DNA of 64,000 nt, from assembly GCF_012034175.1 (NCBI RefSeq), contig NZ_JAATEJ010000021.1, positions 1-64,000 of the forward strand, written 5' to 3'. Each line of letters starts with the position of its first letter. Position 1 is the first letter of the stretch. A program made the position numbers and the translations under genes. Source of the DNA: Actinacidiphila epipremni (lineage in GTDB: Bacteria > Actinomycetota > Actinomycetes > Streptomycetales > Streptomycetaceae). Shown piece after piece: positions 27,411 through 46,031 of the stretch. Under the pieces are notes generated by a model. It was not told the DNA's origin. It did not search any database and worked only from the letters and a program-made list of their open reading frames with translations.

Positions 27411-27419
27411 TGCTGAGAG

Positions 27420-27944
27420 GTGACGCACGACAACCGCGCGGCCGAACCCGTCGCGCCGAAGAACCCCCAGCGCCGTCCCGCCGGTCCGTGGCGCGGCGCC
27501 CTCGCGCCGCTCGCCGTGGTGGCCGTGGCGCTGTTCTCCCTCACGCTGTACGCCTCGTCCGGCGCCGCCGGTGCCCTGCCGGCCCGGATCAGGGTCACCG
27601 CCGGGCAGGTCCTCGCGCCCACCGGCTCCGAGACGACCTCGGCGTACTTCGACCTGGCCAACACCGGGCAGTCCGCCGACACCCTGCTGTCGGTCAGCTC
27701 CCCCCGGTTCGGCCGGGTCATGATGGCCCACACGGTGCAGGAGCACGGCGCCGGGCGCATGGAGCCCGTCCGGGCGCTCGCTCTCCCACCGGGCAGCCGC
27801 TTGGCGATGTCGCCCTTCGGCACCGACCTCATGCTGCCCGCCGACCCCTCGCAGACGCCGGGCAGCACCGTCGACTTCGACCTGCACTTCGCGGGCAGCG
27901 GCACGATCCGCGCCCGCGCGGTGGTCGTGCCGCTCGGCGGCTGA
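27420..27944 (+). CDS. PCuAC-family copper chaperone (DUF461), membrane-anchored
   Basis: 174 residues: a cytoplasmic basic leader, one N-terminal membrane anchor (LAPLAVVAVALFSLTLYASS) and a cupredoxin-like PCuAC domain (about 55-174). The family Cu(I) loop is seen as MMAHTVQEHGAGRMEPV followed by PPGSRLAMSPFGTDLML. It keeps Met and His residues, but the usual HLM of the last ligand pair is DLM here, so the ligand set may be altered. PCuAC proteins hand copper to SCO1 or directly to oxidase. The start is a GTG with a suspected leaderless promoter. Confidence 0.82.
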   Translation: MTHDNRAAEPVAPKNPQRRPAGPWRGALAPLAVVAVALFSLTLYASSGAAGALPARIRVTAGQVLAPTGSETTSAYFDLANTGQSADTLLSVSSPRFGRVMMAHTVQEHGAGRMEPVRALALPPGSRLAMSPFGTDLMLPADPSQTPGSTVDFDLHFAGSGTIRARAVVVPLGG

Positions 27945-28013
27945 CGCCGTACCGGCGTGCGAACGACACCACCCCCGTGCCGCCCGGCCGGCGGCGCCAT
28001 GCTCTGGAGAGAC

Positions 28014-28259
28014 ATGCCCCCCTTGCTTGCCGCCCCGCGCCCCGGTCCCATGACCGGGAGGCCCGCCGGTGCCGCACCCGCCCCGGCCGTCCTCGTCGTG
28101 GCTTTCGTCCTCTTCCTCGCCGTCGTCTTCGGCGCCTCCTACGCCGCAGGTGCCGCGGCCGGCCCCGTCAACCCCCGTATGCACCCCGCGCCGACGGGCG
28201 CGCCGGCCGACGGGCACGGCGGGACGGGGGACATGGGCGGGATGGGGGGCATGGGATGA
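28014..28259 (+). CDS. 81-residue single-span protein with Met/Gly tail
   Basis: A single strong hydrophobic helix (APAVLVVAFVLFLAVVFGAS) is followed by an outer segment with MHP, DGHGG and the tail GDMGGMGGMG. The composition suggests an extracytoplasmic Cu(I)-binding tail. The ATG at 28014 follows GGAGAG at 5 bases and the stop overlaps the CopA start (ATGA), so it is translated with the ATPase. I do not recognise a named family. It may feed or protect the exporter. Confidence 0.7.
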   Translation: MPPLLAAPRPGPMTGRPAGAAPAPAVLVVAFVLFLAVVFGASYAAGAAAGPVNPRMHPAPTGAPADGHGGTGDMGGMGGMG

Positions 28260-30562
28260 GCGCCGCACCCGCGGGAGCGCAGACGGCCGCGGCCCCGGAG
28301 AGCGCCGTGACCGACCCGACCGCGACCGACCTGACCGTGACCGACCTGACCGTCACGGGAATGACCTGCGCCGCCTGCGTGGCCAGGGTCGAAAAGCGGC
28401 TGGCGCGGCTGGACGGCGTCACCGCCACCGTCAACCTCGCGACCTCGACCGCGCATATCGCCCACCCCGCCTCGCTGACGGCCGCCGATCTCGTCGCCGC
28501 GGTCGAGGCCGCCGGGTACGGCGCGCAGCCGCGGCTGCCGGACGCCCCGGCCGACGAGCCCCGCGCCGACCGGGGCGAACTGCTGCGGCTGCTCGCGGTC
28601 GCCGTGCTGGCGCTGCCCGTGCTGGCCCTGTCGATGGTGCCGTCGTGGCAGTTCACCTCCTGGCAGTGGGTGTGCTTCGCGCTGGCCCTGCCGGTGGCGA
28701 CCTGGGGCTCCTGGCCCTTCCACGCCCGTGCCGTAAAAGGGCTGCGGCACGCCACCGCGACCATGGACAGCCTGGTCTCGCTCGGCGTGGCGGCCTCGCT
28801 CGGCTGGTCCACGTACGCGCTGCTGCTCGGCGGTGCGGGCGCGGCCGGTTACCGGATGCCGTTCACGCTGCTGCCCTCGACGCACCACGGCGTGCACGTC
28901 TACCTCGAAGGCGCGGTGAGCGTCCCGCTCGCGGTGCTCGCCGGGCGGCTGCTGGAGGGCAGGGCCCGCCGCGGCACGGGCGAGGCGCTGCGCGCGCTGG
29001 CGGAACTCACCGTCCCCGAGGTGGCCCTGCGCGCCGCGGACGGCACCGAGCGACTGGTGGCACCGGCGCAGCTGCGGGTCGGCGACCACTTCACCGTACG
29101 GCCCGGCGAGCGCGTCGCGACGGACGGCACCGTCGCCGAGGGGAATTCGGCGCTGGACCTGTCGCTGGTGACCGGTGAGAGCGAGCCGGCCGAAGTGCGG
29201 CCCGGCAGCCCGGTCGTGGGCGGCGCGGTCAACGCCGGCGGGCTGCTGGTGGTGCGTGCCACCGCGCTGGGGGCCGACACCCGGCTCGCCCGTATCACCC
29301 GGGCAGTCGCCGACGCGCAGACGCAGAAGGCGCGGGCGCAGCGGCTCGCCGACACCGTCGCCGGGATGTTCGTCCCGTCCGTGCTGGCCCTCGCCGTGGC
29401 AGTGCTGGGCTTCTGGCTCGGGGCGGGCGCGGCGGCCGAGGCGGCGGTGACGGCGGCGGTCGCGGTGCTGGTCGTGGCCTGCCCGTGCGCGCTCGGCCTG
29501 GCGACCCCGACCGCGCTGCTCGCCGCGACCGGCAGGGGCGCCCGCCTGGGCGTCCTGGTCTCCGGGGCCCGCGCCCTGGAGTCGCTGCGCGACATCGACA
29601 CCGTGGTGATGGACAAGACCGGCACGCTGACCGCCGGCCAGATGACCGTGACCGCGGTGGCGTGCCGGCCCGGGGGTCTCGGTGAGGAGGCGGTGCTGCG
29701 CCTCGCGGGCGCGGTCGAACGCGGCTCGGAGCACCCGCTGGGCCGGGCGTTGGCCGCCTACGCCGCCCGGCGCCGCCCTGCCGGCGGGGCGCTGCCCCCG
29801 GTCGAGGACTTCACCGCGATCCCGGGGCGGGGGGTCACCGGCACGGTGGAGGGGCACCGTACGGCGGTCTGCGCCCCGGACGAGGCACTGACCGGCCCCT
29901 TGGCCGCCGCCGTCGCCGAGGCCGCGGCGCAGGCCCGTACCTGCGTGCAGGTCACCGTCGACGGGGTCCCCGAGGCCGTGATCACCCTCGGCGACAGCCT
30001 GCGCGCCGACGCCTACCGGGCCGTGGACCACCTGCGCAGGCTCGGAGTCCACCCCGTGCTGGCCACCGGCGACAGCGAAGGTCCCGCCTTCGCTGTCGCC
30101 GAAGCGCTCGGCATCACCCGCGTCCATGCCCGCCTCACCCCCGAGGACAAGGCCGCGCTGGTACGCGACCTGCGCTCCGAGGGGCGCCGGGTCGCCGTGC
30201 TCGGCGACGGCGTCAACGACTCCGCCGCCCTGGCCACGGCCGACCTCGGCATCGCCATGGGCACCGGCACGGACGCCGCCCGCGCGGCCTCGGACGTCAC
30301 GCTGGTCCGCGGCGACATCCGCGCGGTCGGCGACGCGGTACGGCTCGCCCGCCGGACGATGACCACCATCCGCGCCAACCTCGCCTGGGCGTTCGCCTAC
30401 AACCTGGTGACCGTCCCGCTGGCCGCGACCGGCTGGCTCGACCCGATGCTCGCCGCGGTCGCGATGTCCCTCAGCTCGCTGCTCGTCGTCGCCAACAGCC
30501 TCCGCCTGCGCACCTGGGAGCCCACCTCGCACCGCCGGGCCGGGCGTACGCCACGGGGGTGA
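28256..30562 (+). CDS. Copper-translocating P1B-type ATPase (CopA/CtpA-like)
   Basis: 768 residues. An N-terminal stretch with a repeated TDLTVTDLTVT leads into one heavy-metal-associated domain with GMTCAAC (Cys38, Cys41). Eight spans are predicted, with the intramembrane CPC motif (near residue 408), phosphorylation site DKTGTLT (Asp near 453), TGES in the actuator domain, the SEHPLG motif and GDGVND near residue 650. CPC plus GMTCAAC defines Cu(I) transport. It either exports excess copper or loads extracytoplasmic proteins such as cytochrome oxidase; the neighbours SCO1, CtaG and PCuAC favour the second. It is coupled to the 81-residue protein by ATGA. Confidence 0.93.
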   Translation: MSAAPAGAQTAAAPESAVTDPTATDLTVTDLTVTGMTCAACVARVEKRLARLDGVTATVNLATSTAHIAHPASLTAADLVAAVEAAGYGAQPRLPDAPADEPRADRGELLRLLAVAVLALPVLALSMVPSWQFTSWQWVCFALALPVATWGSWPFHARAVKGLRHATATMDSLVSLGVAASLGWSTYALLLGGAGAAGYRMPFTLLPSTHHGVHVYLEGAVSVPLAVLAGRLLEGRARRGTGEALRALAELTVPEVALRAADGTERLVAPAQLRVGDHFTVRPGERVATDGTVAEGNSALDLSLVTGESEPAEVRPGSPVVGGAVNAGGLLVVRATALGADTRLARITRAVADAQTQKARAQRLADTVAGMFVPSVLALAVAVLGFWLGAGAAAEAAVTAAVAVLVVACPCALGLATPTALLAATGRGARLGVLVSGARALESLRDIDTVVMDKTGTLTAGQMTVTAVACRPGGLGEEAVLRLAGAVERGSEHPLGRALAAYAARRRPAGGALPPVEDFTAIPGRGVTGTVEGHRTAVCAPDEALTGPLAAAVAEAAAQARTCVQVTVDGVPEAVITLGDSLRADAYRAVDHLRRLGVHPVLATGDSEGPAFAVAEALGITRVHARLTPEDKAALVRDLRSEGRRVAVLGDGVNDSAALATADLGIAMGTGTDAARAASDVTLVRGDIRAVGDAVRLARRTMTTIRANLAWAFAYNLVTVPLAATGWLDPMLAAVAMSLSSLLVVANSLRLRTWEPTSHRRAGRTPRG

Positions 30563-32296: not shown

Positions 32297-32349
32297 TTCC
32301 GCGTACGCCGAGAGCCTTGCCCGGTCCCCCACACCGCAAGGAGTATCCG

Positions 32350-34212
32350 ATGCACGTCCGAACGCCGCCCCCGCAGGGGCGTGAGCCGATGAACCCCCCG
32401 CGTCGTGCCCCGCTCGTGTGGGCCGCGACCGCCGTTCTCACCCTGCTGGGCGCGAGCCTGGCCGTGAGCCCCGACGCGTCCGCCGCCACGACGGCGGCGG
32501 TGACCGTGAACGCCGGGCAGGTGCTGGCGACCGTGCCTGCCACCGGTGTCGGGACCAACGTGGCCGTCTACGACGGCAACATGAACGACGCGGCCGTTCC
32601 CGGGCTGCTCAGTGCGGCTGGGATCAAGGCCGTGCGCTATCCCGGCGGCTCGTACTCGGACATCTACCACTGGCAGACCCACACCACCGACGGCGGCTAC
32701 GTCGCCCCTGGCACGGACTTCGACACGTACATGAGCACGGTGAAGGCCGCGGGCGCCCAGCCGATCGTCACCGCGGACTACGGTTCGGGGACGGCACAGG
32801 AAGCGGCCGACTGGGTACGGTACGCCAACGTGACGAAGGGCTACGGTGTCAGGTACTGGGAGATCGGCAACGAGGTCTACGGCAACGGGGAGTACGGCTC
32901 CAGTTGGGAGACCGACAAGCACTCCAGCCACAGTGCCACCACCTATGCGACCAACCTGGTGCAGTACGCCTCCGCCATGAAGGCCGTCGACCCGAGCATC
33001 AAGATCGGCGCGGTCCTGACCACGCCGGGCAACTGGCCGGACGGCCTCACGGGGCCGGGTGACACCGCCGACTGGAATCACACGGTCATGTCGATCGCCG
33101 GACCGAAGATCGACTTCGTGATCGTCCATCATTACCCGACCAGCTCCAGCGAGGCCGACCTGCTGGGCAAGCCGCACGCGGAGATCCCGGGCATGGCGAG
33201 CACCCTGCGCTCCCTCATCGACCAGTACGCCGGGAGCAACGCCCCCGACGTCGGGATCGCGGTCACCGAGGCCAACGGCAACATGTACAAGGATGCCGCC
33301 TCGAACGGGCTCTTCGCCCCGGACGAATACCTGACCTGGATGGAGAACGGTGCCTTCAACGTCGACTGGTGGGGCCTGCACAACGGGACCGACTGCAGCA
33401 AGGTGACCAGCGTCGACGGCGGCACCGACTACGACGACTACGGCGTCCTCTCCAGCGGCGCGTCCTGCGAGCCGCCGCTGGACACCCCCTTCGCGCCGTA
33501 CTACGGCACGCAGATGATCACGAAGCTCGCCGCGCCGGGCGACTGGCTGGTCCGCGGTTCGAGCTCCAGCTCCCTGCTGGCCGTGCACGCCGCCAAACGG
33601 GCCGACGGTGACGTCGATGTGATGCTGATCAACAAGGACCCGTCCAACGCGGTCGCCGTCTCGCTGGACTTCGACGGCTTCAGCCCGTCCGCCACCACCC
33701 CGACTGTCTATACATACGCCAAGAACGGCACCTCGATCACCTCCGCGGTCTCCGGCAGTGCCGCCCAGCAGAGCGTGCCGGCCTACTCGATCGTGGTCGT
33801 GCAGCTGCACCCGGGGAGCGGTGGCACCGCGACGGGCGGTACGACATCGGGCGGTGCGACGACGTCCGGCGGTACGAGTGGCGGCACCGGCTCGGGCGCG
33901 TGCGCGGTCACGTACACCAAGAGCGAGTGGCAGGGCGGTCTGACGGCGGACATCAAGGTCGCCAACACCGGGAGCACGCCCGTCAGCGGCTGGACGCTCG
34001 CCTTCAGCTTTCCCGGAGACACGAAGGTGACCAGCGTGTGGAACGCCGCGGTCACCCAGAGCGGCTCTGCGGTGAGCGCGAAGAGCCTCTCCTACAACGG
34101 CACCATCGCGCCGGGCGCCGACGTCTCCTTCGGTTTCCAGGGAGCATGGTCGCAGAACGACGCGAGCCCCGCGGTCTTCGCTCTCAACGGCGCCGCCTGC
34201 ACGGTCGGCTGA
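32350..34212 (+). CDS. Secreted clan GH-A glycoside hydrolase with C-terminal CBM2
   Basis: 620 residues: signal peptide (about 1-48, ending DASAATT), a TIM-barrel hydrolase (about 50-380) with acid/base Glu in YWEIGNEVYG and nucleophile Glu in IAVTEANGNMY, a beta-sandwich (about 390-490), a Gly/Ser/Thr linker (GTTSGGATTSGG) and a CBM2 domain (about 520-620) starting CAVTYTKSEWQGG. The GNE and TEANG pattern is that of alpha-L-arabinofuranosidase or related clan GH-A enzymes often called cellulose-binding proteins. CBM2 binds cellulose or xylan. The ATG at 32350 follows AAGGAG at 7 bases. The upstream LacI operator shared with GH54 supports a role in arabinan or arabinoxylan use. The precise GH family is not settled. 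Confidence 0.82.
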   Translation: MHVRTPPPQGREPMNPPRRAPLVWAATAVLTLLGASLAVSPDASAATTAAVTVNAGQVLATVPATGVGTNVAVYDGNMNDAAVPGLLSAAGIKAVRYPGGSYSDIYHWQTHTTDGGYVAPGTDFDTYMSTVKAAGAQPIVTADYGSGTAQEAADWVRYANVTKGYGVRYWEIGNEVYGNGEYGSSWETDKHSSHSATTYATNLVQYASAMKAVDPSIKIGAVLTTPGNWPDGLTGPGDTADWNHTVMSIAGPKIDFVIVHHYPTSSSEADLLGKPHAEIPGMASTLRSLIDQYAGSNAPDVGIAVTEANGNMYKDAASNGLFAPDEYLTWMENGAFNVDWWGLHNGTDCSKVTSVDGGTDYDDYGVLSSGASCEPPLDTPFAPYYGTQMITKLAAPGDWLVRGSSSSSLLAVHAAKRADGDVDVMLINKDPSNAVAVSLDFDGFSPSATTPTVYTYAKNGTSITSAVSGSAAQQSVPAYSIVVVQLHPGSGGTATGGTTSGGATTSGGTSGGTGSGACAVTYTKSEWQGGLTADIKVANTGSTPVSGWTLAFSFPGDTKVTSVWNAAVTQSGSAVSAKSLSYNGTIAPGADVSFGFQGAWSQNDASPAVFALNGAACTVG

Positions 34213-34591: not shown

Positions 34592-34878
34592 CGCTCTGCG
34601 GATCTTGCGATTTCTGCGCCGCCAGGGACGGGCAGGCCATCGGATGCGCGACTTATGTGTGGGGCCCACTCGTGAAGGGCATCGCCGGCTGCCGCGGGGG
34701 GTGTGAGGTTTCGGTGTGGGGGAGTGGCTACAGATGTCGACCTGCCCGAACGGGCCGCCGCGTTGGGTCGATATCTCTGTATGACTCATTGACACACCCT
34801 GGGTTTGCTTGGATGCTGCTGCCCACGCAGCTGGTGAACATCAGTTCACTCTACGAACAGATGGGGCTCGTATGTTGA
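34588..34878 (+). CDS. Micro-ORF B, Cys-rich, 96 residues
   Basis: The start MTLCGSCDFCAARDGQAIGC has four Cys in a zinc-finger-like spacing and a further CRGGCEV. Codon bias is mixed and falls off in the second half, which overlaps the start of the esterase gene. The real peptide may be shorter or degraded. No family recognised; the tandem micro-ORFs look like accessory DNA. The rest of 34260-34871 shows nothing except a weak TTGACA at 34789. Confidence 0.3.
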   Translation: MTLCGSCDFCAARDGQAIGCATYVWGPLVKGIAGCRGGCEVSVWGSGYRCRPARTGRRVGSISLYDSLTHPGFAWMLLPTQLVNISSLYEQMGLVC

Positions 34879-36554
34879 ATGAGAAGGCGCGCAGAGTCGG
34901 GCGCCGAACACCCACCGGCGTCAGCGGCCGGTGGAGAAAGCTGGCCGTCAAGGCCTCGGTCATCGCACTCCTGGCTGGTATGGCGGGGATGTCGCCCGCC
35001 TTCGCCGACGACGGTGACGTTCTTGCGTCACAGAACTTCACGAACATCGCGTACAAGGACCCGATCCCTGCCACGACGAAGGGCAACCTGCTCGACATCT
35101 ACCTGCCCGAACGGGCCAAGGGGGAGAAGCTTCCGCTGGTCATCTTCTCCAACGGCTCGGCCTGGACCGCGGACAGCGGCAAGGGCGGCGCGAACACGTG
35201 GGCGGCTGCTCTCGGCTCGGCCGGGTACGCGGTCGCCGGTGTGAGCATCCGGTCGAGTTCGCAGGTGCAGGCGCCCGGTCAGATCCAGGACGTTCACGAC
35301 GCCATCCGCTACCTGCGTGCTCACGCTGACGAGTACGGGTTCGACCCGAACCGGTTCGCGTTCGCGGGCTTTTCCTCGGGTGCTTGGGCCGCGGCCATCG
35401 CCGGCACGACCGGTGGCAGTGACAATCCGCTCTTCTGGGGTACCAACCCCGCCACCGAGGGCGTATCGGACAAAGTCCAGGCTGTCGTCACCTACGCACT
35501 TCCGGCGAACTTCCGCACCATGGACTCCCAGTGGGGTGGGGATGCAACGTGGGGCGTGGACGAGAACGGGCTCGCGGTTCCTCCGAGCGGAGTCGGCATC
35601 ACCGGACTGCAGCACAATCCCACGAACTCCCCGGAGTCGTCGCTCGTGGGATGCAAGGGCGGCAGCATGCCGGCCGGCCTCCAGGACCCGGACTGCGTCT
35701 GGGCCGACCCGGCCAGCCCCGTCCAGAACGTGTCGGCGGACGACCCGCCCTTCCTGCTCATGCACGGCGGGAGTGACAACCTTCTCCCCTTCCTCCAGAG
35801 CCAGCAGATGTTCGACGCCCTCGCGGCGGCATGCGTGGACGCGACGTTCCAGTGGGTCGCGGGCCAGGGCCACACGGGCAGCTACCCCGCCAGCGTCCAG
35901 AACGTGACTCGGAGGGTCCAGCAGGTCGACCCGAGCACGTGCAAGAAGCAACCGGTGCGCCAGTACTTCGGTACCGCGGACGCTCCCATCACTGACGAGT
36001 TGCCGAACTTCGGCTACGTACAGGCGTTCCTCGACCGGGTACTCGCCCCGACCCCGCCGACCGCCCCGTCCACCCAGGAACTCCTGGTGAACGTGCCGGA
36101 CGCACCTCCCGGTGAGTTCGGCTGGACGATCGACGGCGACAACGGCCTGGTGGACCTCGGCACCGCCGAGGACCACGACGGCGACTACTTCGACGCGACC
36201 GGGAAGATCAACCCCATCGCCGTGTCGGACAGCCGTCGCTCGCTCGCCCCGTGGTCGATCTCGGCCAGCGTGAGCGACTTCAAGGACGGCGACAAGCAGT
36301 TCTCCGGCGCCTACCTCGGCTGGACGCCGCAGGTACTGGAGGCCGGTGCGGGAGCCAAGGCCAGCGGCTCGGTGAGTCCCGGCTACGACGACCACGGCGC
36401 CGGCTTGTCCGTCTCTCGCGGCCTCGGCTGGGCCGACCAGAACCACCCCAAGGGCACGGCCAAGCTGGGCGCCGACCTGGAACTGAAGATCCCGGGCAGC
36501 GTCGACAAGGGCGCCTACCGCGCCACCCTCACGATCACCGCTCTGAGCAGCTGA
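34872..36554 (+). CDS. Secreted alpha/beta-hydrolase (esterase) with WxL-like C-terminal domain
   Basis: 560 residues: signal peptide (about 1-39, ending SPAFADD), an alpha/beta-hydrolase domain (about 40-390) of the BD-FAE/esterase type, and a C-terminal beta domain (about 405-560). The hydrolase has LPLVIFSNGSAW, the nucleophile Ser in FAGFSSGAWAA, an acidic residue in LMHGGSDNLLPF and the His in AGQGHTGSYP. The C-terminal domain shows WSISASVSDF, FSGAYLGWTP, KLGADLELKIPG and the end GAYRATLTITAL, the layout of Firmicute WxL wall-binding domains though with I in place of L. Downstream lies a DUF916 gene, the usual WxL partner. The substrate may be a wall polymer or plant ester; unknown. Confidence 0.8.
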   Translation: MLNEKARRVGRRTPTGVSGRWRKLAVKASVIALLAGMAGMSPAFADDGDVLASQNFTNIAYKDPIPATTKGNLLDIYLPERAKGEKLPLVIFSNGSAWTADSGKGGANTWAAALGSAGYAVAGVSIRSSSQVQAPGQIQDVHDAIRYLRAHADEYGFDPNRFAFAGFSSGAWAAAIAGTTGGSDNPLFWGTNPATEGVSDKVQAVVTYALPANFRTMDSQWGGDATWGVDENGLAVPPSGVGITGLQHNPTNSPESSLVGCKGGSMPAGLQDPDCVWADPASPVQNVSADDPPFLLMHGGSDNLLPFLQSQQMFDALAAACVDATFQWVAGQGHTGSYPASVQNVTRRVQQVDPSTCKKQPVRQYFGTADAPITDELPNFGYVQAFLDRVLAPTPPTAPSTQELLVNVPDAPPGEFGWTIDGDNGLVDLGTAEDHDGDYFDATGKINPIAVSDSRRSLAPWSISASVSDFKDGDKQFSGAYLGWTPQVLEAGAGAKASGSVSPGYDDHGAGLSVSRGLGWADQNHPKGTAKLGADLELKIPGSVDKGAYRATLTITALSS

Positions 36555-36574
36555 TCCGACCCGTTCCAACCGGT

Positions 36575-36604
36575 GGGGTGGGGCACCAGGAGGTGCCCCA
36601 CCCC
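36575..36604 (+). terminator. 13-bp perfect hairpin with T-rich tail inside esterase-DUF916 unit
   Basis: GGGGTGGGGCACC at 36575-36587 pairs with GGTGCCCCACCCC at 36592-36604, AGGA loop, followed by GTCTTTCTTT. It lies between the esterase stop and the DUF916 ribosome site (AGGAG at 36616-36620), so it should reduce downstream expression. Confidence 0.8.
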
Positions 36605-36630
36605 GTCTTTCTTTCCAGGAGACCCCTGAG

Positions 36631-37704
36631 ATGCACGTGCCCGTAGGTCGCCGGAAGACCACCGTCGCCGTTCTCCGCCGTATCGTCGCGGCGGCCCTGC
36701 TCGCCGCCTTCGCGTTTGCCGCCCTACCCGCCGGCCCCGCCGCCGCGGCGGACGGCGATGTGACCTGGACGGTCAAGACGGCGGCCAACAGCTACGGCGA
36801 CGACCGGCCCAGTTTCAGCTACGCAGTCAGCCCGGGCGGACAGGTCAAGGACGCCATGGTTGTCGCCAACCGCGGCAAGGTGCCGCTCGACCTCGCCGTC
36901 TACGCCGCCGATGGCTTCACGACCGACGCGGGGCAACTTGACCTGCTCGCCAGGGACAAGAAGTCCGTCGGAGTCGGCGCCTGGGTCCACGCCGGCCGCG
37001 ACAGCGTCGAGATCGAGCCCGGCAAGTCCGTCGAGGTCCCCTTCACCGCCACGGTTCCGGACAACGCCACCCCCGGCGATTACGTGGGCGGCATCCTCAC
37101 TTCGCTCACACAGCGCGACGATGCCGAGGGCATCAACGTGGACCGGCGCCTCGGTATCCGCGTCAAACTGCGGGTCAGCGGCGAGCTCAAGCCCGGTCTC
37201 GCGGTCGAGCACCTCAAGGTGAGCTACGCGGGCTCGCTCAACCCGTTCACCGGGGGCGACGCCACTGTCAGCTACACGATCCACAACACCGGCAACACCA
37301 CGCTGTCGGCCCGCCAGGCGGTATCGCTGCACGGCCCGTTCGGGTGGCTGCGGGCCGAATCGGACGACATTCCCCCGGCGCCGGACCTGCTGCCCGCGGA
37401 GAGCTGGAAGGTGACGGTGCCCGTGCATGACGTGGTACCAGGATTCAGCCTGACCGCGACCGCAGCCGTCACACCGCAGTTCGCCGACCCGTCGGGTTCC
37501 ACCACCTCGCTCAAGACGGTGCGGGCCTCGACGCACGGCTGGGCGGTCCCATGGACACTGCTGCTGCTGATCGTCCTACTGATCGTGATCTCTGTCGGGG
37601 TGCTGCTTCAAGCGCGCCGCCGCCGTACGCGGCGCAAGCTGCGTGAGGACGCCCTCGTACAGGCCGCCGTCGAGCAGGCGCTCAGCGACCGGACGACCCG
37701 GTAG
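36631..37704 (+). CDS. DUF916 (WxL-interacting-type) cell-wall protein with membrane anchor
   Basis: 357 residues: signal peptide (about 1-38, ending GPAAAADG), an Ig-like DUF916 peptidoglycan-binding region (about 40-185; FSYAVSPGGQVKDAMVVANR, then ATPGDYVGGILTSL, RLGIRVKLRVSGEL), a second beta domain (about 190-300) and a C-terminal membrane helix (WTLLLLIVLLIVISVGVLL) with a basic tail RRRRTRRKLRED. This matches WxL-interacting proteins, which are wall scaffolds in Firmicutes. It follows the esterase with the WxL-like domain, 76 bases away, so the two products probably associate at the cell surface. Confidence 0.82.
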   Translation: MHVPVGRRKTTVAVLRRIVAAALLAAFAFAALPAGPAAAADGDVTWTVKTAANSYGDDRPSFSYAVSPGGQVKDAMVVANRGKVPLDLAVYAADGFTTDAGQLDLLARDKKSVGVGAWVHAGRDSVEIEPGKSVEVPFTATVPDNATPGDYVGGILTSLTQRDDAEGINVDRRLGIRVKLRVSGELKPGLAVEHLKVSYAGSLNPFTGGDATVSYTIHNTGNTTLSARQAVSLHGPFGWLRAESDDIPPAPDLLPAESWKVTVPVHDVVPGFSLTATAAVTPQFADPSGSTTSLKTVRASTHGWAVPWTLLLLIVLLIVISVGVLLQARRRRTRRKLREDALVQAAVEQALSDRTTR

Positions 37705-37715
37705 CTGTCGTTGTT

Positions 37716-37746
37716 CCGACCTGGCGACGAGGTTCCGCCAGGTCGG
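37716..37746. terminator. 11-bp perfect hairpin between convergent units
   Basis: CCGACCTGGCG at 37716-37726 pairs with CGCCAGGTCGG at 37736-37746. It begins 11 bases after the DUF916 stop and separates it from the leftward ABC transporter operon. Confidence 0.75.
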
Positions 37747-37885
37747 GCAACAGCATCGCGTCGGTGCCACCCCGCGGTGGGGCCGTCACCAGGGGCCGGT
37801 GAGTGCGGTCCGCGCCTTGCCACGGCCGCGGCACCGACGCCGTCGGCCCCGTTCGGTCGAGCCGAGCGGGGCCGGGCCGGCCGGG

Positions 37886-38692
37886 TCAGGCCTTTGCCAC
37901 CTTGGCGGCCTGGATCTGCTCGTATATCCGGGTCCGGAAGGCTGTGAAGCGGGGGTCGGCGCGGGTGGTCAGCTGATCGCGCTCGTCGGGCAGGTCGATC
38001 GTGAGTTGTTCCTGCACCACAGTGGGGGAGTTGGACAGGACCAGTACCCGCTGGCCGAGGTAGACGGCCTCGTCGATGTCGTGGGTGACGAACAGGACGG
38101 TCACCCCAAGGTCCTGCCACACGCGCCGGACCAGGTCCTCCAGGTCGGCTCGGGTCTGGGCGTCCACGGCGGCGAAAGGCTCGTCCATGAGGAGCACTTC
38201 GGGCTCGTAGGCGATCGCCCGTGCGATGGCGACGCGCTGCTGCATGCCGCCGGAGAGCTGCCAGGGGTAGGCGTCGTGGGCATGCGTGAGCCCGACCTCG
38301 GCGAGGGAGCGTTCGACCAGTTCGCGGCGGCGCTGCCGGCTCATCTCCTTCTTCTGCCTCAGCGGTAGTTCCACGTTGTCGCGTACGCGCAGCCAGGGGT
38401 ACAGGCTGCGGCCGTACTCCTGGAAGACCAGTGCCATGCCCGGCGGCGGTGCGGTGACCTTGTGCCCGCCCAGCAGCACGTCGCCCGCGCTGGGCGCGAG
38501 CAGGCCGGCAAGGCACTTCAGCAGCGTGGTCTTGCCGCATCCCGAGGGGCCGACCAGGCAGGCGAGCTCTCCCGGTTCGAGTGTGAACGTGAGGTCGCGG
38601 ACGGCCTCCACCCGGCGTCCGGCGCCCTCGTACACCTTCTGCAGGCCGCGTACTTCGAGCATGGGTTGTCCGCTTCCGTTCTTGTGAGTCAT
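37886..38692 (-). CDS. ABC transporter ATPase, nitrate/sulfonate/taurine type (SsuB/TauB-like)
   Basis: 268 residues; Walker A GPSGCGKTT (48-56), Q-loop FQEYGRSLYPW, signature LSGGMQQRVAIARA, Walker B VLLMDEP, H-loop FVTHDIDEA. The insert EYGRSLYPWLRV is typical of the nitrate/taurine class. The ATG at 38692 overlaps the permease stop (ATGA). Last gene of a four-gene leftward operon (binding protein, two permeases, ATPase). Its substrate is probably an organic anion; the adjacent regulator and pca operon suggest an aromatic acid. Confidence 0.9.
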   Translation of the reverse strand: MTHKNGSGQPMLEVRGLQKVYEGAGRRVEAVRDLTFTLEPGELACLVGPSGCGKTTLLKCLAGLLAPSAGDVLLGGHKVTAPPPGMALVFQEYGRSLYPWLRVRDNVELPLRQKKEMSRQRRRELVERSLAEVGLTHAHDAYPWQLSGGMQQRVAIARAIAYEPEVLLMDEPFAAVDAQTRADLEDLVRRVWQDLGVTVLFVTHDIDEAVYLGQRVLVLSNSPTVVQEQLTIDLPDERDQLTTRADPRFTAFRTRIYEQIQAAKVAKA

Positions 38693-39477
38693 GAGGCCCG
38701 CCGGGACGCCCGCAGACCGTGGTACCAGGCCAGGGCTCGGCGCTCGACCAGTTGGAACAGCATGGAGAGTACGAAGCCGAGCAGGCCGAGGAGGAGGATG
38801 CCGCTCCACATCTCGGGGATGGCGAAGCTGCGCTGGAAGTCGACAATGGCGAAGCCGAGGCCGTTGCTGGCCGCGAACATCTCGCTGATGACCATCAGGA
38901 TGATGCCGATCGACAGCGCCTGGCGCAGGCCCGCGAAGATCTGCGGGCTCGCGGCGGGCAGTACGAGGTGGCGCAGCCGGGCGGGAGCCGGCAGCCGGTA
39001 GCTGCGGGCGGTCTCGATCATCACCTGGTCGACGGCACGCACTCCCTCGACCGTGTTGAGCAGAACCGGCCACAGGCAGCCGCTGGCGATGACGATGAGC
39101 TTCATGGTGTCGCCGATGCCGGCGAACAGCATGATGATCGGCACCAGAACCGGCGGCGGCAGGGCCCGAAGGAATTCCAGGACGGGTTCGAGCGTGGCCC
39201 GCAGCTGCGCGTGCAGACCCACGAGCAGCCCAAGACCGATGCCGGCCACGGCTGCCAGCAGGTAGCCGGCGGTCAGGCGCAGCAGGCTCGGCACCACGTC
39301 GTGGGTGAGCCTGTCGCCGTCCCAGGTCGGACCGAACGTGCGCAGAATTGTGCGCAGCGGCGGGGAGTAGATGCTGGTGCTGTCGTCGCTCACCAGCCAC
39401 CACGCGGCGATCAGCAGTGCCGGCAGTGTCAGGGCCCACATCACGTTGACCAGGATGCGTCTCATTACACGACCCAT
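38689..39477 (-). CDS. ABC transporter permease, SsuC/TauC-like
   Basis: 262 residues, about six spans, with the EAA-type loop IETARSYRLPAPARLRHLVLP near residue 150. The start ATG at 39477 shares one base with the upstream TAA (TAATG). It overlaps the ATPase gene by ATGA. A second in-frame ATG at 39465 starts MRRILVNVMW and is also possible. It pairs with the permease at 39477-40253, so the transporter has a heteromeric membrane part. Confidence 0.88.
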   Translation of the reverse strand: MGRVMRRILVNVMWALTLPALLIAAWWLVSDDSTSIYSPPLRTILRTFGPTWDGDRLTHDVVPSLLRLTAGYLLAAVAGIGLGLLVGLHAQLRATLEPVLEFLRALPPPVLVPIIMLFAGIGDTMKLIVIASGCLWPVLLNTVEGVRAVDQVMIETARSYRLPAPARLRHLVLPAASPQIFAGLRQALSIGIILMVISEMFAASNGLGFAIVDFQRSFAIPEMWSGILLLGLLGFVLSMLFQLVERRALAWYHGLRASRRAS

Positions 39478-40253
39478 TAGACGACTGCCTCTCCGCGGAC
39501 GGACTGGTGCCAGGAGAGCAGCCGGCGCTCCGCGGCCCGTGCGCCCAGGTTGATGCCCAGGCCGAGCAGTCCGGTGACCGCGATGAGCGCGTACATCTGC
39601 GGGACGGCCTGCGAGGACTGGGCGACGGCGATCCTGACGCCGAGGCCGGGCGCCCCGATGACCAGTTCGGCGGTGATGGCGAGGATCAACGCGACCGCGG
39701 CGGCAAGCCGGATGCCGGTCATCAGATAGGGCAGGCCGGTGGGCCACAGCAGGTAGCGGATCCGGGCCCAGGTCCCGAGCCGGTAGCTGCGAGCAGTTTC
39801 CTCCGCTACCGGGTCGATGTCCCCGACGCCGTAGAGCACCTGCACCAGTACTTGCCAGAAGGCCGCGTAGACCACCAGGAGCAGTGTGGAGCCGATCTGC
39901 GTGCCGTACAGCAGGACGGCCAGCGGGATCAGCGCCACCGAGGGTATAGGGCGCAGGAACTCGACGGTGGAGGCGGTGAACCGGCGAAGCCAGGGCACGA
40001 GGGCAAGCAGCACGCCGGCGACGACACCGCCAGCGACGGCGATCAGCAGCCCCAGACCCCAGGCGATGAGAGTGTCGCCAAGGGCCGACCAGAAGGAGCC
40101 CTGGAGCACCTGGTCCCACAGAGCCACCGCGATCCGGCTGGTCGGCGGGAAGTAGGCGGACGGCACCAGGCCGGTCCGTGGGAGCAGTTCGATGAGCACG
40201 AGGAATCCGAACAGCCCGCACAGACCCAGCCCGGCACGGCGGGCGGCGCTCAC
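39477..40253 (-). CDS. ABC transporter permease, SsuC/TauC-like
   Basis: 258 residues from the GTG that overlaps the binding-protein stop (GTGA). About six spans and the loop AEETARSYRLGTWARIRYLL near residue 150. It resembles the neighbouring permease in the loop ETARSYRL, so the two arose by duplication. Most members of this class use a homodimer; two distinct permeases are less usual. Confidence 0.88.
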   Translation of the reverse strand: MSAARRAGLGLCGLFGFLVLIELLPRTGLVPSAYFPPTSRIAVALWDQVLQGSFWSALGDTLIAWGLGLLIAVAGGVVAGVLLALVPWLRRFTASTVEFLRPIPSVALIPLAVLLYGTQIGSTLLLVVYAAFWQVLVQVLYGVGDIDPVAEETARSYRLGTWARIRYLLWPTGLPYLMTGIRLAAAVALILAITAELVIGAPGLGVRIAVAQSSQAVPQMYALIAVTGLLGLGINLGARAAERRLLSWHQSVRGEAVV

Positions 40254-41224
40254 GGAAGCAGCTTGCTCAGGTCGGGAGCCGAGGAGATCAGACCGTCCTG
40301 CTGCCCGAGCTTCCCGAGGGTCTCCAGCGATGCCTTGTCAGGCTCCGCCGGCCAACTCGGCAGGATGACCTGGGAGAGCAGGGACGCCGGGATCTGCGTG
40401 TAGGTGCTGACCACCTTCCGCACCTCGTCCGGGTGGGCGGTGGCGTAGGCGAGGGACTCGCTCAGAGCGGTCTGGAACTTCTTGACCTCGGCGGGATGCT
40501 GCGCGGCGTAGCTCGTCGAGGTGAAGTACAGGGCCACGGTCAGGTCGGGGGAGACGTCCACGAAGTTGGACGCGACCACCCGTCCGCCGCTGGCCTTCAC
40601 CGAGGCCAGGGCCGGCTCGACCACCCAGGCGGCGTCCACCTGGTGCTTGGTCAGCGCGGCGGGCATCTGGGCGAAGTCCATCTCGACGAACTTGACCTTG
40701 CTCGGATCGCCACCGGCCTTGCGCACCGACTCGCGCACGGTGGTGTCTCCGATGTTCTTCAGGGTGTTGACCGCGACGGTCTTGCCCTCAAGATCCTTCG
40801 CCGACGTGATCGGACTGTCCTTGGATACCGCGATGCCGCCGAAGTCCGCGCCGTCCTTGCCGGTCGAGTTGTTGCCCTCGGCCACGCCCTTGACGGGAAC
40901 GTTCTTGTCCTGCGCGACCATCAGCGAGGTCACGTTGGAGAAGCCGAACTGAAACTGGCCACTGACGACGCCGGGGACGATGGCGGCTCCGCCCTGGGCG
41001 GTGGAAAGATTGAGCTTGATGCCCTGTTTGTCGAAGAAGCCCTTCTCCTTGCCCAGGTAGATGGGTGCGACATCGACGATGGGCACCAGTCCCACGTTGA
41101 GGGTGACCGTGCCTCCGGCCTTGTCGGCGGCGGTGTTGTCGGAACCGGAACCGGAACCGGATCCGCAGGCCGCGGCCGTGAGAAGGACGGCGGTGACACT
41201 GAGGCCGGCGAGTATGCGGCGCAT
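40250..41224 (-). CDS. ABC transporter substrate-binding lipoprotein, NMT1/SsuA type
   Basis: 324 residues; lipobox LTAAAC, then Gly/Ser run and an NMT1-like fold: LNVGLVPIVDVAPIYLGKEK, FFDKQGIKLNLSTAQGG, VVSGQFQFGFSNV, KDLEGKTVAVNTLKNIGD and AAWVVEPALASV. The class binds nitrate, sulfonates, taurine, pyrimidines or aromatic acids such as phthalate. The ATG at 41224 follows AGGGG. An upstream in-frame start would add residues unlike a signal peptide. Close to pca genes, with GAACGTTC sites before the gene, an aromatic acid is plausible. Confidence 0.9.
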   Translation of the reverse strand: MRRILAGLSVTAVLLTAAACGSGSGSGSDNTAADKAGGTVTLNVGLVPIVDVAPIYLGKEKGFFDKQGIKLNLSTAQGGAAIVPGVVSGQFQFGFSNVTSLMVAQDKNVPVKGVAEGNNSTGKDGADFGGIAVSKDSPITSAKDLEGKTVAVNTLKNIGDTTVRESVRKAGGDPSKVKFVEMDFAQMPAALTKHQVDAAWVVEPALASVKASGGRVVASNFVDVSPDLTVALYFTSTSYAAQHPAEVKKFQTALSESLAYATAHPDEVRKVVSTYTQIPASLLSQVILPSWPAEPDKASLETLGKLGQQDGLISSAPDLSKLLP

Positions 41225-41498
41225 GAAGACCCCTGGTGATCGAAGCAGTGGAAGACACAGCAGGGCAGAGCAAATGTGCGCGTGGCGCACAAAGATTCTC
41301 ATCGAGAACATAGGGCCGCTCGCGGGTGAGGTCAACACTCCCGCTTGAGGCAGATCCGTAACGATGAGTCGGGACAAAACGACCGCTTCCGTCGCCGTCG
41401 GCTCGCGCTTTGGACGCTCCCGAACGTTCCCCCTGCGTGGGAACGTTCGCATAGCGCACGGTCCGGAACCGGTCTCAGCTTGTCCGCGGCTGCGCTTT
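41225..41498. other. Promoter region of the SsuA-type ABC operon
   Basis: 274 bases between the end of the IclR gene and the binding protein. It contains a perfect 11-base inverted repeat (41421-41449) and an A/T-richer patch around 41280-41310. No gene is supported. Confidence 0.55.
41421..41449. promoter_or_regulatory. Operator-like inverted repeat with two GAACGTTC cores
   Basis: CGAACGTTCCC (41421-41431) and GGGAACGTTCG (41439-41449) are perfect inverted copies around a 7-base spacer. Each arm contains the palindrome GAACGTTC. A related GAACGTTG is before pcaI (43259-43266). It is a likely site for the double IclR regulator next door. Confidence 0.65.
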
Positions 41499-43166
41499 CT
41501 ATGTGGTGGGCGGTGCGGTGAAGCGGCCGGCGATGCGCAGGTCCGACTCCACCGCCGCCGCGGACTCGCGAAGAGCGGGGAGGACGTCGCTCAGGCACTC
41601 GGCGAGCGACAGGCGAGCGCTGTGCATCGAGACGTTGATCGCGCCGACAACCCGGCCGGCGCTGTCGCGGACCGGGACTGCAAGGGAGCGCAGGCCGACT
41701 TCCAGTTCGTCGGTGACCACGGCGTATCCCGCGTCGGCGACCTGTTCGAGCACCCCGTCCAGCCGGGTGCGGTCTGTGATGGTGAACCGGGTGAGGGGAC
41801 GGAGCTCCTCCGTCGCCAGAAGCCTGCGGCGCTCGTCGTGCGGCAGGGCTGAGAGCAGGACGCGGCCCAGGCTCGTGGCGTAAGCGGGGAAACGGGTGCC
41901 GACGCTGATGTGGACGCTCATGATGCGGCTCGTCGCGACCCGGGCGGTGTAGCGGATGTCGGTCCCGTCAAGGACGGCCAGTGATGCCGATTCGTGGACC
42001 CTGGCGACCAGGCTGGCCAGATGGGGCTCGGCCAGACCCGGCAGGGCCACTCGGGACAGCGGGGCGTAGCCCAGCTCCAGCAGGGCTGGAGTCAGTCGGA
42101 AGGAGTACCCCTCCGTAGTCACGTAGCCGAGATGCTGCAGGGTGATCAGTGCGCGCCGGGCCGTCGCACGGGCCAGGCAGACGCCTTCCGCGACCGCGGA
42201 CAGGCGCAGTTCCGCGCGTCCCGCGTCGAAGGCTGTCGGCACGAGCAGCCCTCGGGCGAGGGATTCGATGAAATCCGCGCCCAGTTCGTCCTTCGAGGCG
42301 GAGATCCACTCCGCGGTGCGGGCGGGTACCTGCTCGGCGGGCGCGGGTGGCTCCCGTAGCACCTGTTCCATCGCGTCACGGGCGCGCGTCAGCGCGGGAA
42401 GCAGGGCCGTGCGGAGGTCGCGCGCACTGTGGCGGCTGGTGTGGCTGACCACGCTCAGCGCGCAGACCAGGGCGCCCTCGGGGTCGTGCACAGGAACGGC
42501 CATGGCCACCAGGCCGGGTTCGATCAGCTGGTCGTCCAGGGCCGAGCCGTCCACCTTCGCCCGTGCGGCGCGCTGCCGGAAGTCGGGGAGACCGCGCCTG
42601 CCGGGTGGCGCTGCGGGGAACGCGAGCTGGTCGGGATCGGCGGCGCGTCGGGTCTGCCAGTCCGCCCACTGCGCCGGACTCCACAGCGCGGCGAACAGTG
42701 CTCCGGGAGCCGTGCGTTCGGCCGGGAGCAGGTCGCCGATACGGAAGCTGAGCGAGAGGCTGCGGCGGCGGGTTGCCTGGTGGACAAAGCGGATGCCGTC
42801 GCGATCGGGGACGGCGAGAGAGACGGACTCGTCGAGCGTGTCGGCGAGGCGGTCGGCGATCGGGCCGAGCAGCTCCGGCAGGCGGGTGGCGGCGAGGTAG
42901 GCGTTGCCGAGTTCCATCAGCGGTGGCGCCAGCGACGCGCTTCGGCCGTCCAGGCGCACGTAGCCGGTGCGGGCGAGGGTCGCCGTGATCCGGTCGACGG
43001 TGGAACGGGCCAGGCCGGTGGTGCGGACCAGTTCGCCGAGCGTCAGCCGGTGCTCGGGAGCTGTGGCGAGGGTGCGCAGTATGGCGACGCCGCGCAGTAG
43101 CGGCCCGACGGCCTCCGCAGGGACGTCCGGCGAGGCCGATGTATCCGTGTGGATCGACTCGCGCAT
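41499..43166 (-). CDS. Double-length IclR-family regulator of the pca region
   Basis: 555 residues made of two complete IclR units in tandem: HTH about 20-85 (LTLGELVRTTGLARSTVDRI), effector domain about 90-270, then a second HTH about 305-365 (ELRLSAVAEGVCLARATARR) and effector domain about 370-550. Each half has the IclR beta-strand and SMHS-type signature (VCALSVVSHTS; VGAINVSMHSA). IclR proteins of the PcaR/PobR group activate aromatic operons with protocatechuate, 4-hydroxybenzoate or beta-ketoadipate as effector. The normal length is about 250-280, so this is a fusion duplication. It is divergent from pcaI. The ATG at 43166 follows AGGAG. Confidence 0.88.
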   Translation of the reverse strand: MRESIHTDTSASPDVPAEAVGPLLRGVAILRTLATAPEHRLTLGELVRTTGLARSTVDRITATLARTGYVRLDGRSASLAPPLMELGNAYLAATRLPELLGPIADRLADTLDESVSLAVPDRDGIRFVHQATRRRSLSLSFRIGDLLPAERTAPGALFAALWSPAQWADWQTRRAADPDQLAFPAAPPGRRGLPDFRQRAARAKVDGSALDDQLIEPGLVAMAVPVHDPEGALVCALSVVSHTSRHSARDLRTALLPALTRARDAMEQVLREPPAPAEQVPARTAEWISASKDELGADFIESLARGLLVPTAFDAGRAELRLSAVAEGVCLARATARRALITLQHLGYVTTEGYSFRLTPALLELGYAPLSRVALPGLAEPHLASLVARVHESASLAVLDGTDIRYTARVATSRIMSVHISVGTRFPAYATSLGRVLLSALPHDERRRLLATEELRPLTRFTITDRTRLDGVLEQVADAGYAVVTDELEVGLRSLAVPVRDSAGRVVGAINVSMHSARLSLAECLSDVLPALRESAAAVESDLRIAGRFTAPPTT

Positions 43167-43192
43167 CAGGCGGTTCTCCTGCCGGGAGGGTG

Positions 43193-43221
43193 TTGACAGC
43201 CGTGGCCGCAGTACGCAGACT
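43193..43221 (+). promoter_or_regulatory. Promoter of pca operon
   Basis: TTGACA (43193-43198), 17-base spacer, CAGACT (43216-43221). The start point would fall near 43228, so the GAAC half-sites at 43240-43262 lie immediately downstream of it and before the pcaI ATG at 43294. Confidence 0.6.
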
Positions 43222-43239
43222 GCACACCATGAGGGAACT

Positions 43240-43262
43240 GAACAATAGTTCGTCTAGTGAAC
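43240..43262. promoter_or_regulatory. Cluster of GAAC/GTTC half-sites before pcaI
   Basis: GAAC (43240-43243), GTTC (43248-43251) and GAAC (43259-43262), the last continuing to GAACGTTG, give three alternating half-sites spaced 8 and 11 bases apart. They lie between the pca promoter and pcaI and fit binding by an IclR protein. Confidence 0.5.
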
Positions 43263-43293
43263 GTTGGGCAAGTGGCCGGGGTGGGGCCGCCTA

Positions 43294-44076
43294 ATGGACA
43301 AGGTCCACCCCAGTGCCGCCGCTGCGGTGCGGGACATACCCGACGGCGCGTCACTCGCCGTCGGCGGCTTTGGTCTCAGCGGTGTGCCGAACACGTTGAT
43401 CAAGGCCCTGTACGAGCATGCCGCCAAAGACCTGCAGGTAGTGTCCAACAACTGCGGTGTGGACGGGGGCGGCCTCGGCATCCTGCTCGCGGCGGGCCGG
43501 ATCGCCCGGGTCACCGGCTCCTACATCGGTGACAACAGGGAGTTCGCCCGCCGTTATCTGGGCGGCGAACTGGAGGTGGAGCTCGTCCCGCAGGGGACGC
43601 TCGCGGAGCGGCTGCGAGCCGGTGGCTGCGGTATACCCGCCTTCTACACTCCGGCCGGAGTCGGCACCCAGGTCGCCGACGGCGGCCTGCCCTGGCGCTA
43701 CGACACCCAGGGCGGTGTTGCGCTGGCCTCTCCGCCGAAAGAGGTCCGCAGCTGGGACGGCCGTGCCTACGTGCTTGAGCGTGGCATCATCACCGACTAC
43801 GCGCTGGTGCGTGCCGCCAAGGGCGACCGGCACGGGAACCTGGTCTTCAACAAGGCGTCCCGCAACTTCAACCCGCTGGCGGGGATGGCCGGGCGGATCA
43901 CCGTCGCCGAGGTCGAGCAACTGGTCGAGCCCGGTGGTCTGGACCCCGACGAGATCCACCTCCCCGGCGTGTTCGTGCAGCGTGTGGTCGAGCTGACTCC
44001 CGCCCAGGCCGGGGACAAGGGCATAGAACGGCGCACGACCTCCGGGCCTCCTGGACGAGGGACGGTGCGCGCCTGA
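43294..44076 (+). CDS. pcaI: 3-oxoadipate CoA-transferase subunit A
   Basis: 260 residues; CoA-transferase family I alpha subunit. It contains [17 protein letters not shown], then [37 protein letters not shown] and [14 protein letters not shown]. With PcaJ it moves CoA from succinyl-CoA to 3-oxoadipate in the last but one step of the beta-ketoadipate pathway. ATG 43294 chosen over a TTG at 43264 because the family N-terminus aligns there. First gene of the pca operon; its stop overlaps pcaJ (TGATG). Confidence 0.92.
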
Positions 44077-44726
44077 TGGCATGGACCCGCAACGAAATGG
44101 CGGCCCGAGCGGCCTTGGAGCTCAAGGACGGCTCCTATGTCAACCTCGGCATCGGGCTGCCCACGCTGGTGCCGAGCTTCCTGCCCGCCGGCGTGGACGT
44201 CGTGCTGCACTCCGAGAACGGCCTGCTCGGCGTCGGCTCCTACCCGACCGAGGACGCGGTCGACCCCGACCTGATCAACGCGGGCAAGGAGACGGTCACC
44301 GTCGTGCCGGGGGCGTCGTTCTTCGACTCCTCGCTCTCCTTCGGCATGATCCGCGGTGGGCACATCGACGCCGCGGTCCTGGGCGCGATGCAGGTCTCGG
44401 CCTGCGGTGACCTGGCCAACTGGATGGTCCCAGGGAAAATGATCAAGGGCATGGGCGGTGCCATGGACCTGGTCCACGGCGCCCGCCGGGTCATCGTCGT
44501 CATGGAGCACACCGCCAAGGACGGCAGCCCGAAGATCGTGGACACCTGTACGCTCCCGCTGACCGGCCGCGGCTGCGTGCACCGCGTCATCACCGACCTC
44601 GGCGTGCTCGACGTGACCGAGGACGGGCTCGTTCTGGTCGAGACCGCGCCCGGCGTCACCGCCGAGGAGATCCAGGCGGCCACGGCCGCGCCGGTGCGCG
44701 CCGCTGCCGGCCCGGCCGAGAGCTGA
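44076..44726 (+). CDS. pcaJ: 3-oxoadipate CoA-transferase subunit B
   Basis: 216 residues; CoA-transferase beta subunit with the catalytic Glu47 in [13 protein letters not shown], typical [16 protein letters not shown] near the start, and [17 protein letters not shown] at 44076 shares a base with the pcaI stop. It forms the active heteromer with PcaI. Ala-rich C-terminal tail of about 15 residues. Confidence 0.93.
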
Positions 44727-44811
44727 CCCCCGTACCCGCAGACCCGATCCGGCTTCGCCCGACGCAGCGCCGGGTCCGCCGGCGCCCCACCCGCACGCAG
44801 GAGTTGCACCC

Positions 44812-46026: not shown

Positions 46027-46031
46027 ACCCC

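Follow-up and report, generated by a model that had tools for sequence, protein, structure and literature searches.

The 64,000-nucleotide stretch of DNA analysed here, called the window throughout, opens contig NZ_JAATEJ010000021.1 of the actinomycete Actinacidiphila epipremni and carries on its forward strand two neighbouring genes, one for a secreted esterase that ends in a domain related to the WxL domain and one for a WxLIP-type protein with a DUF916 domain, with a hairpin between them. We read the two genes, with a probability of about 0.76, as an enzyme-display pair, in which the secreted esterase would dock through its WxL-like domain on the membrane-fixed partner and be held at the cell surface. 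The features of the pair are as follows.

34872..36554, + strand: secreted BD-FAE esterase with a C-terminal WxL-like domain, 560 aa (ATG at 34872, stop to 36554)
34872..35006, + strand: esterase signal peptide (roughly residues 1-45, recognised by inspection)
35007..36044, + strand: catalytic domain of the esterase
36072..36551, + strand: WxL-like C-terminal putative docking domain, about residues 401-560 (D-x-R, then W-S-I with the W codon at 36252)
36572..36607, + strand: intergenic hairpin, 13 bp stem, then TTTCTTTCC
36631..37704, + strand: WxLIP-type partner, 357 aa (signal peptide, two immunoglobulin (Ig)-like domains of which the first is DUF916/PGBD, C-terminal helix, basic tail)

The sequence-only reading of this locus had proposed an α/β-hydrolase followed by a membrane-anchored DUF916 protein; both genes lie where it placed them, and the hydrolase is borne out by a match of 137.6 bits to the Pfam family BD-FAE (PF20434), whose cut-off is 26.8. 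The top-scoring solved relatives of the esterase, 6xyc and 6tkx, are titled acetyl xylan esterase or carbohydrate esterase. The founding BD-FAE enzyme, which came from polysaccharide utilisation loci of beaver and moose gut enrichments, is reported to have feruloyl and acetyl xylan esterase activity and a Ser-Asp-His triad (PMC8165983). By inspection, the candidate triad motifs of the window esterase, GFSSG (from residue 166), HGGSDN (298), and GQGHT (331), match those of this enzyme of the same Pfam family, for which, unlike the window esterase, no docking domain is mentioned in the accessible part of that paper.

The anchored partner likewise holds up, since the protein matches WxLIP_PGBD (DUF916, PF06030) at 32.9 bits against a cut-off of 27.3 and its model ends in a helix; its signal peptide and C-terminal hydrophobic stretch are recognised by inspection only. 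In an alignment of 74 of 79 candidate partners (A4, five overlong frames dropped), 68 members match DUF916/PGBD at E ≤ 0.01, and the profile of this alignment finds the solved Enterococcus faecium WxLIP (EfmWxLIP1) at E 1.3e-9. A second profile (A6), built from the window and 75 of the 80 named loci described below, the remaining partners being absent or truncated, gives weak matches only, with two designed Ig proteins (0.0074 and 0.015) above WxLIP (0.068). Aligned with four DUF916-DUF3324 proteins of Lactobacillales, the partner profile reaches 91.8% (E 7.2e-7) over the first part. The partner model, with a predicted local distance difference test (pLDDT) score of 86.8, comprises two Ig domains and a C-terminal helix at residues 268-316, and its closest fold is 9i25_C (Z 16.5, root-mean-square deviation 4.9, 240 aligned residues between 3 and 267), from the complex of the E. 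faecium locus A WxLIP with long WxL, followed by WxLIP alone (9i1y, Z 15.8). These structures share the two-Ig fold of the partner at 13-14% identity, and fimbrial chaperones and other Ig proteins reach at most 12.6, including the chaperone-usher chaperones CfaA (Z 12.6), CsuC (11.3), FimC (11.1), and Caf1M (10.7). The first Ig domain of the partner also resembles GH123 chains (Z about 11). As a separate observation, the plasmid record CP069367.1 (Klebsiella pneumoniae) contains at 102103-102528 an unannotated WxLIP-like stretch with 58% identity to the E. faecium WxLIP, and this record is possibly a chimeric or contaminated assembly.

For the C-terminal domain, the sequence-only reading had claimed the layout of WxL and had named a profile search against the WxL model as a check. 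This search gives a weak match to PF13731 (14.8 bits for the whole protein; for the domain alone 18.7 bits, E 0.0019) that falls below the cut-off of 25, and the Pfam score alone leaves the WxL identity of the window domain open. Its relatives were therefore considered in an alignment of 56 rows (A3), composed of the window, one row from its own genome, and 54 of 55 further representatives picked from 120 usable domains, after two short domains had been dropped and one representative (L080) left out. Against PF13731, 27 of these 56 diverse relatives reach E ≤ 0.01 (best 1.8e-9), more than chance would give, and only two other families are matched, each by one member; one relative, a fusion to glycoside hydrolase family 43 (GH43; locus L140), exceeds the PF13731 cut-off at 32.5 bits. 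In hhalign, the 56-row alignment matches the five Lactobacillales WxL domains annotated in lactic-acid-bacterium plasmids at 97.0% (E 1.2e-10); the match spans 140 columns and places D-x-R as well as the first W motif in register. Control comparisons in which each profile was crossed with the wrong partner give 0.3% and 0.2%, and an alignment of close relatives of the window domain only (A5) gives a weaker 64.6%. D-x-R ahead of the first motif, with D and R both kept, is present in all 56 rows, and the W of the first motif in 54; D-x-R-G is a motif named for WxL (PMC1534035). Hence the claimed layout stands as regards homology, D-x-R, and the first W, and fails at the second W-x-L site, which reads 'ATLTITAL' in the window and has its W in 0 of 56 rows. 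In addition, the domain lies at the extreme C terminus in all 122 domain-bearing open reading frames (ORFs), with 0-5 residues beyond it. On these profile and motif comparisons, the C-terminal domain is a WxL homologue without one defining motif, and it is named 'WxL-like' because it lacks the dual W-x-L motif that defines WxL. Searched against solved structures at E ≤ 10, the 56-row profile finds only GH123 chains and PsaK and no WxL structure, and the domain of L140 has gamma-tubulin complex component 3 as its sole match. For the WxL-like domain, the N-terminal part of GH123 (PDB 5l7r/5l7v, 5fqe) stands near the top by profile (E 0.007) and by model (Foldseek rank 1, E 0.0022).

How regularly the domain and the partner occur together was surveyed in 296 genomes of the class, in which at most 12 candidates per genome were scored for the domain profile (A1), so that the counts are lower bounds; from the listed hits of at least 22 bits, 108 regions were taken for closer analysis, 6 of them without a domain by the iterated model. 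The domain profile is found in at least 59 of these genomes and the Pfam DUF916 model in 62, with both in at least 50, the domain only in 9, the partner only in 12, and neither in 225 (Fisher p 1.2e-35, uncorrected for relatedness). A DUF916 (PF06030) match lies within 3 kb of 76 of the 131 listed domain hits; the nearest one is on the same strand and downstream in 71 of these 76 cases, and the gap measures 114-570 bases in 66. Within the genus, 25 of 35 genomes have the domain and 23 the partner. When iterated models were applied to the 122 domain ORFs, the partner was next downstream in 77 and elsewhere within 5 kb in 22. A set of 80 named loci, found with patterns from the two own-genome domains and thus close relatives (60-84% identity) and not a random draw, have the partner directly downstream in 76 cases; three of the other four reach the end of their contig within 107 bases, which leaves L175 as the one true exception. 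These loci span Streptomyces, Dactylosporangium, Actinoplanes, Micromonospora, Herbidospora, Cellulomonas, Microbacterium, Agreia, and Kineosporia, among others, and some relatives have two domain genes near one partner. Moreover, the distances among domains correlate with those among partners (r 0.94 in 151 pairs, the largest of 1000 permutations being 0.15), and they do so at r 0.76 over 6392 comparisons in which the front parts have no BLAST relation. It appears that the front part is swapped and that the domain stays with its partner. Separately, six places in one genome (L129 and L132-L136, genome G161) encode small stand-alone WxL-like proteins, with no DUF916 gene in the stretch fetched.

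The front parts are diverse. Across the 122 ORFs, the N-terminal parts of at least 60 aa form 45 BLAST groups, singletons included, in frames that run from stop to stop and in some cases include non-coding sequence. Pfam searches of 26 chosen ORFs recognise the front part over the cut-off in 14, nine of which are enzymes: purple acid phosphatase (two), another metallophosphatase, GDPD, GH18, peptidases S15 and M64, GH43 with a ricin-type lectin, and an esterase of PF00756. The other recognised front parts are HtaA, RCC1, PD40, LVIVD, and Big_3_5. With phosphatases, GH18, GH43, peptidase, GDPD, and HtaA proteins all carrying it as their last domain, the WxL-like domain gives the impression of a general display tag. 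In 25 of the 122 ORFs fewer than 130 aa precede the domain, and these resemble small WxL proteins.

These observations suggest a mechanism in which the esterase is secreted, its C-terminal WxL-like domain docks on the Ig-like ectodomain of the partner, and the partner, fixed in the membrane by its C-terminal helix, would keep the enzyme at the cell surface. Docking is proposed by analogy with the E. faecium WxLIP-WxL complex and with the strand insertion predicted for Firmicutes, where WxLIP is predicted to supply a strand that closes a gap in WxL (PMC10599100). The contact might take the form of donor-strand complementation, with the DUF916 hairpin of the partner (around LTQRDDAEGINVDRR) adding a strand to the domain. 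As modelled (pLDDT 78), the domain is a pilin-like β-sandwich with a poorly predicted stretch at residues 17-32, and its nearest folds are EcpA (Z 8.0), CfaE (7.2), and FimA/FimG (about 6); this pilin-like model, together with the poorly predicted stretch and the chaperone-like fold of the partner, fits donor-strand complementation, although similarity at Z under 8 may reflect just a common sandwich. A two-gene surface-display module, as initially suggested from the sequence, is thus supported by the homology of both partners, their tight pairing, and the occurrence of the domain behind many secreted front parts, although 'tethered to a membrane-anchored partner at the cell surface' may be better wording than 'held on the wall'. 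We regard the finding as confirmed and widened to a WxL/WxLIP variant in actinobacteria with enzymes among its cargo.

The hairpin between the two genes may set the enzyme-to-anchor ratio. In the window its stem of 13 bp extends to 16 when G-U pairs and closing bases are counted (centroid -37.3 kcal/mol), and the predicted fold of the 86-nt gap is stronger than that of 199 of 200 shuffled versions (z -2.6). Perfect stems of at least 12 bp, with G-U allowed, lie behind the domain gene in 45 of the 77 class-survey pairs and in 57 of the 76 named pairs, two sets that are not independent because they partly overlap (L170 and L196 are one locus). Such stems arise in 3 of 385 (class survey) and 2 of 380 (named) dinucleotide-shuffled controls, in none of the 77 and 76 ends of the domain gene, and in 5 of 75 and 13 of 72 places after the partner gene, respectively. 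The 102 stems have 93 distinct 5' arms. A canonical intrinsic terminator is a poor general description of the hairpin, since only 8 of the 102 stems are T-rich (at least 5 T in the 9 bases past the stem), the window copy being T-rich. Rfam gives no match at E ≤ 1 for 34700-38000. In 47 chosen stem-bearing sequences (the window and 46 named loci), six consensus pairs each show at least one double change, in an alignment that is poor because Microbacteriaceae stems differ. Among three lactic-acid-bacterium gaps, two are near-identical, with an interrupted stem (longest perfect run 6 bp) followed by a T-run, and one has a 9-bp stem; the gap of a Cellulosimicrobium pair has a 14-bp stem. A stem of this kind might make the mRNA of the enzyme more stable or reduce transcriptional read-through to the gene of the anchor.

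Several points weigh against an enzyme-display pair. The window domain scores under the WxL cut-off and lacks the second W-x-L, its model returns nothing from Foldseek at E ≤ 0.001, and a solved WxL chain is absent among the matches listed for it (50 each from Foldseek and VIA). The DUF3324/HBD model matches none of the 74 partners at E ≤ 0.01, so that the second Ig domain is present by fold and not by that model. Pairing is also incomplete: 55 of the 131 listed domain hits have no PF06030 match within 3 kb, and 23 of the 122 domain ORFs have no partner within 5 kb in the stretch fetched, three of them with no room before the contig end, which implies that some copies may act without an adjacent partner. 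Moreover, the correlation of domain and partner distances is also a reflection of the shared descent of linked genes, 12 of the 26 front parts are unrecognised (nine with no match and three with none over the cut-off), and a hairpin as strong as this one could mean that the two genes are not fully co-transcribed.

Other explanations of the same data give the partner or the domain a different role. One may argue that the partner is a membrane-tethered folding chaperone, which completes the WxL-like domain during export and then frees the enzyme, because many of the nearest partner folds after WxLIP are chaperone-usher chaperones and the domain model is pilin-like. However, the WxLIP structures rank above these chaperones (Z 16.5 and 15.8), a pilin resemblance at Z under 8 can merely reflect a common sandwich, and the proposal for Firmicutes is that WxLIP binds WxL at the peptidoglycan surface and stabilises it there (PMC10599100), so we consider a chaperone that releases its client unlikely. 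The 23 partnerless ORFs, 14 of which have fewer than 150 aa ahead of the domain and some of which are cut at a contig end, would suit a domain that binds peptidoglycan or a wall polymer alone, with the DUF916 neighbour as an accessory, and peptidoglycan binding has been reported for WxL domains (PMC10599100). Such self-binding seems less probable still, given the partner directly downstream in 76 of 80 named loci and the correlation of domain and partner distances across unrelated front parts. It would take both the co-occurrence with PF06030, genome-wide and local, and the hhalign match to WxL to be misleading for the domain to be a mere carbohydrate-binding or linker β-sandwich with an unrelated neighbour; a paralogous esterase of the same genome does have a CBM2-like domain (by eye) at the same position, and the domain does resemble the N-terminal part of GH123 as described above, but we hold this explanation to be very improbable.

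Read as an enzyme-display pair, the locus resembles the WxL/WxLIP (Csc) clusters of Lactobacillales, Enterococcus, and Listeria in its C-terminal WxL-homologous domain with D-x-R before the first W and in the neighbouring secreted protein, which combines DUF916 with a second Ig domain and a C-terminal helix. Pairs of this type are mainly known from the lactic-acid bacteria and related groups. In three lactic-acid-bacterium plasmids, a small WxL gene lies directly ahead of the WxLIP gene, as in the window, and in a fourth the order is WxLIP, insertion sequence element, small WxL, large WxL. The window pair differs from Csc clusters in the missing second W-x-L, the unmatched DUF3324 model, and its high-GC actinobacterial host, and it has one domain gene and one partner, whereas Csc clusters have a small plus a large WxL. 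In contrast to Csc clusters, several of the parts fused ahead of the domain can be recognised as enzymes (9 of the 26 examined). Chaperone-usher chaperones and pilins have folds generally like those of the two proteins, but the envelope type and the outcome differ, and no sequence relation between them and the window pair turned up, no specific test for one having been made. Firmicutes hold over 91% of 938 WxL sequences (PMC9772566), so some WxL sequences from outside the Firmicutes are already in Pfam. A 2025 paper lists metallophosphatases and DUF916 beside Ang-2 (HupE/UreJ-2) of Actinomycetota (PMC12537917), and these neighbourhoods match the Ang-2/HupE-like ORF found upstream in 65 of 80 named loci; the accessible part of that paper makes no mention of a WxL-like domain on the phosphatase. 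Unlike Ang-2 neighbourhoods, the window pair has a protein with a CBM2 tail directly upstream. By title and abstract, a limited library held no paper on WxL-like enzyme fusions of actinobacteria, absence there not being absence in print, and the terms 'actino' and 'Streptomyces' were absent from two WxL papers.

The genes around the window pair suggest a role for the esterase.

32308-34212: CBM2-tailed protein, directly upstream of the pair
37886-41452: NMT1/SsuA-like ATP-binding cassette (ABC) transporter, adjoining the pair
41499-51168: protocatechuate / β-ketoadipate locus

The last of these has a double-IclR regulator of the PcaR family (429 bits against a cut-off of 284.75) and a pobA-like hydroxylase; its pcaI, pcaJ, and pcaH genes exceed their respective cut-offs, and a pcaF-like thiolase stays below its own. 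The pcaB-type lyase of the locus is over the pcaB cut-off, and the top raw score of this lyase is to nitrosuccinate lyase, under that cut-off. Because the pair adjoins protocatechuate catabolism, a surface-held feruloyl-esterase activity is suggested; more weakly, we infer that the enzyme is a feruloyl/acetyl-xylan esterase whose freed hydroxycinnamates feed the adjacent pathway. A surface-held esterase that supplies aromatic acids to its own cell would be a coherent reading of the gene content.

Elsewhere in the genome there is just one more match to each of the two: a domain on a purple acid phosphatase, where contig C21 ends, and a partner where contig C46 begins. Both are nearest to L211 and L202, so the two halves are probably one module cut by an assembly gap. 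The window domain is nearest to L174 (Streptomyces sp. CB01373, 85%) and then L131 (82%), and the window partner to L190 (73%) and then L131 and L174 (72% each). Origin of the window cassette by duplication within the genome is not favoured, as it is only 73% (domain) and 63% (partner) identical to the phosphatase cassette. Two further loci of this genome are of interest.

L256 4505-6064, contig C51: second esterase, paralogous to that of the window (48% identity), which ends in a CBM2-like domain (by eye) instead of the WxL-like domain
L005 16343-19911: HupE/UreJ-like (Ang-2-like) protein directly upstream of the phosphatase-WxL-like gene, with His as its mature N terminus (by eye)

The paralogous esterase adjoins a double-IclR regulator 57% identical to the PcaR-family regulator of the window. 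Outside this genome, the catalytic domain has no match among the candidates scored, with limits of E ≤ 1e-40 for 35 genomes of the genus, 1e-50 for 297 of the family, and 1e-45 for 396 of the phylum; at most 7 (family) and 5 (phylum) candidates were scored, so these counts are lower bounds. The fusion of this esterase to a docking domain therefore seems recent or rare.

Actinomycetes secrete many polymer-degrading enzymes, and to our knowledge the surface retention of some of these enzymes without sortase motifs is poorly described. It is conceivable, though on balance doubtful in its entirety, that the cassette is a general sortase-independent display platform of Actinobacteria, swapped between unrelated enzymes, probably locked by a donor strand and with its ratio set by the hairpin, which here tethers a feruloyl-type esterase near a candidate uptake system and a protocatechuate locus for the capture of aromatics. 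If the display reading is true, a C-terminal D-x-R...W domain followed by a DUF916 gene would flag surface-held proteins class-wide, many of them of unknown function, and would offer a portable tag for surface display in Streptomyces. Annotation may miss proteins of this kind, as in an annotated Cellulosimicrobium plasmid record the domain gene is a 'hypothetical protein' and the next gene is DUF916. Since this genome has two related esterases, which end in a CBM2-like domain and in the docking domain, respectively, it would provide a ready natural test. Apart from these genes, a long ORF at window positions 27344-30562 reads by eye as a metal-transporting P-type ATPase with an N-terminal metal-binding motif.

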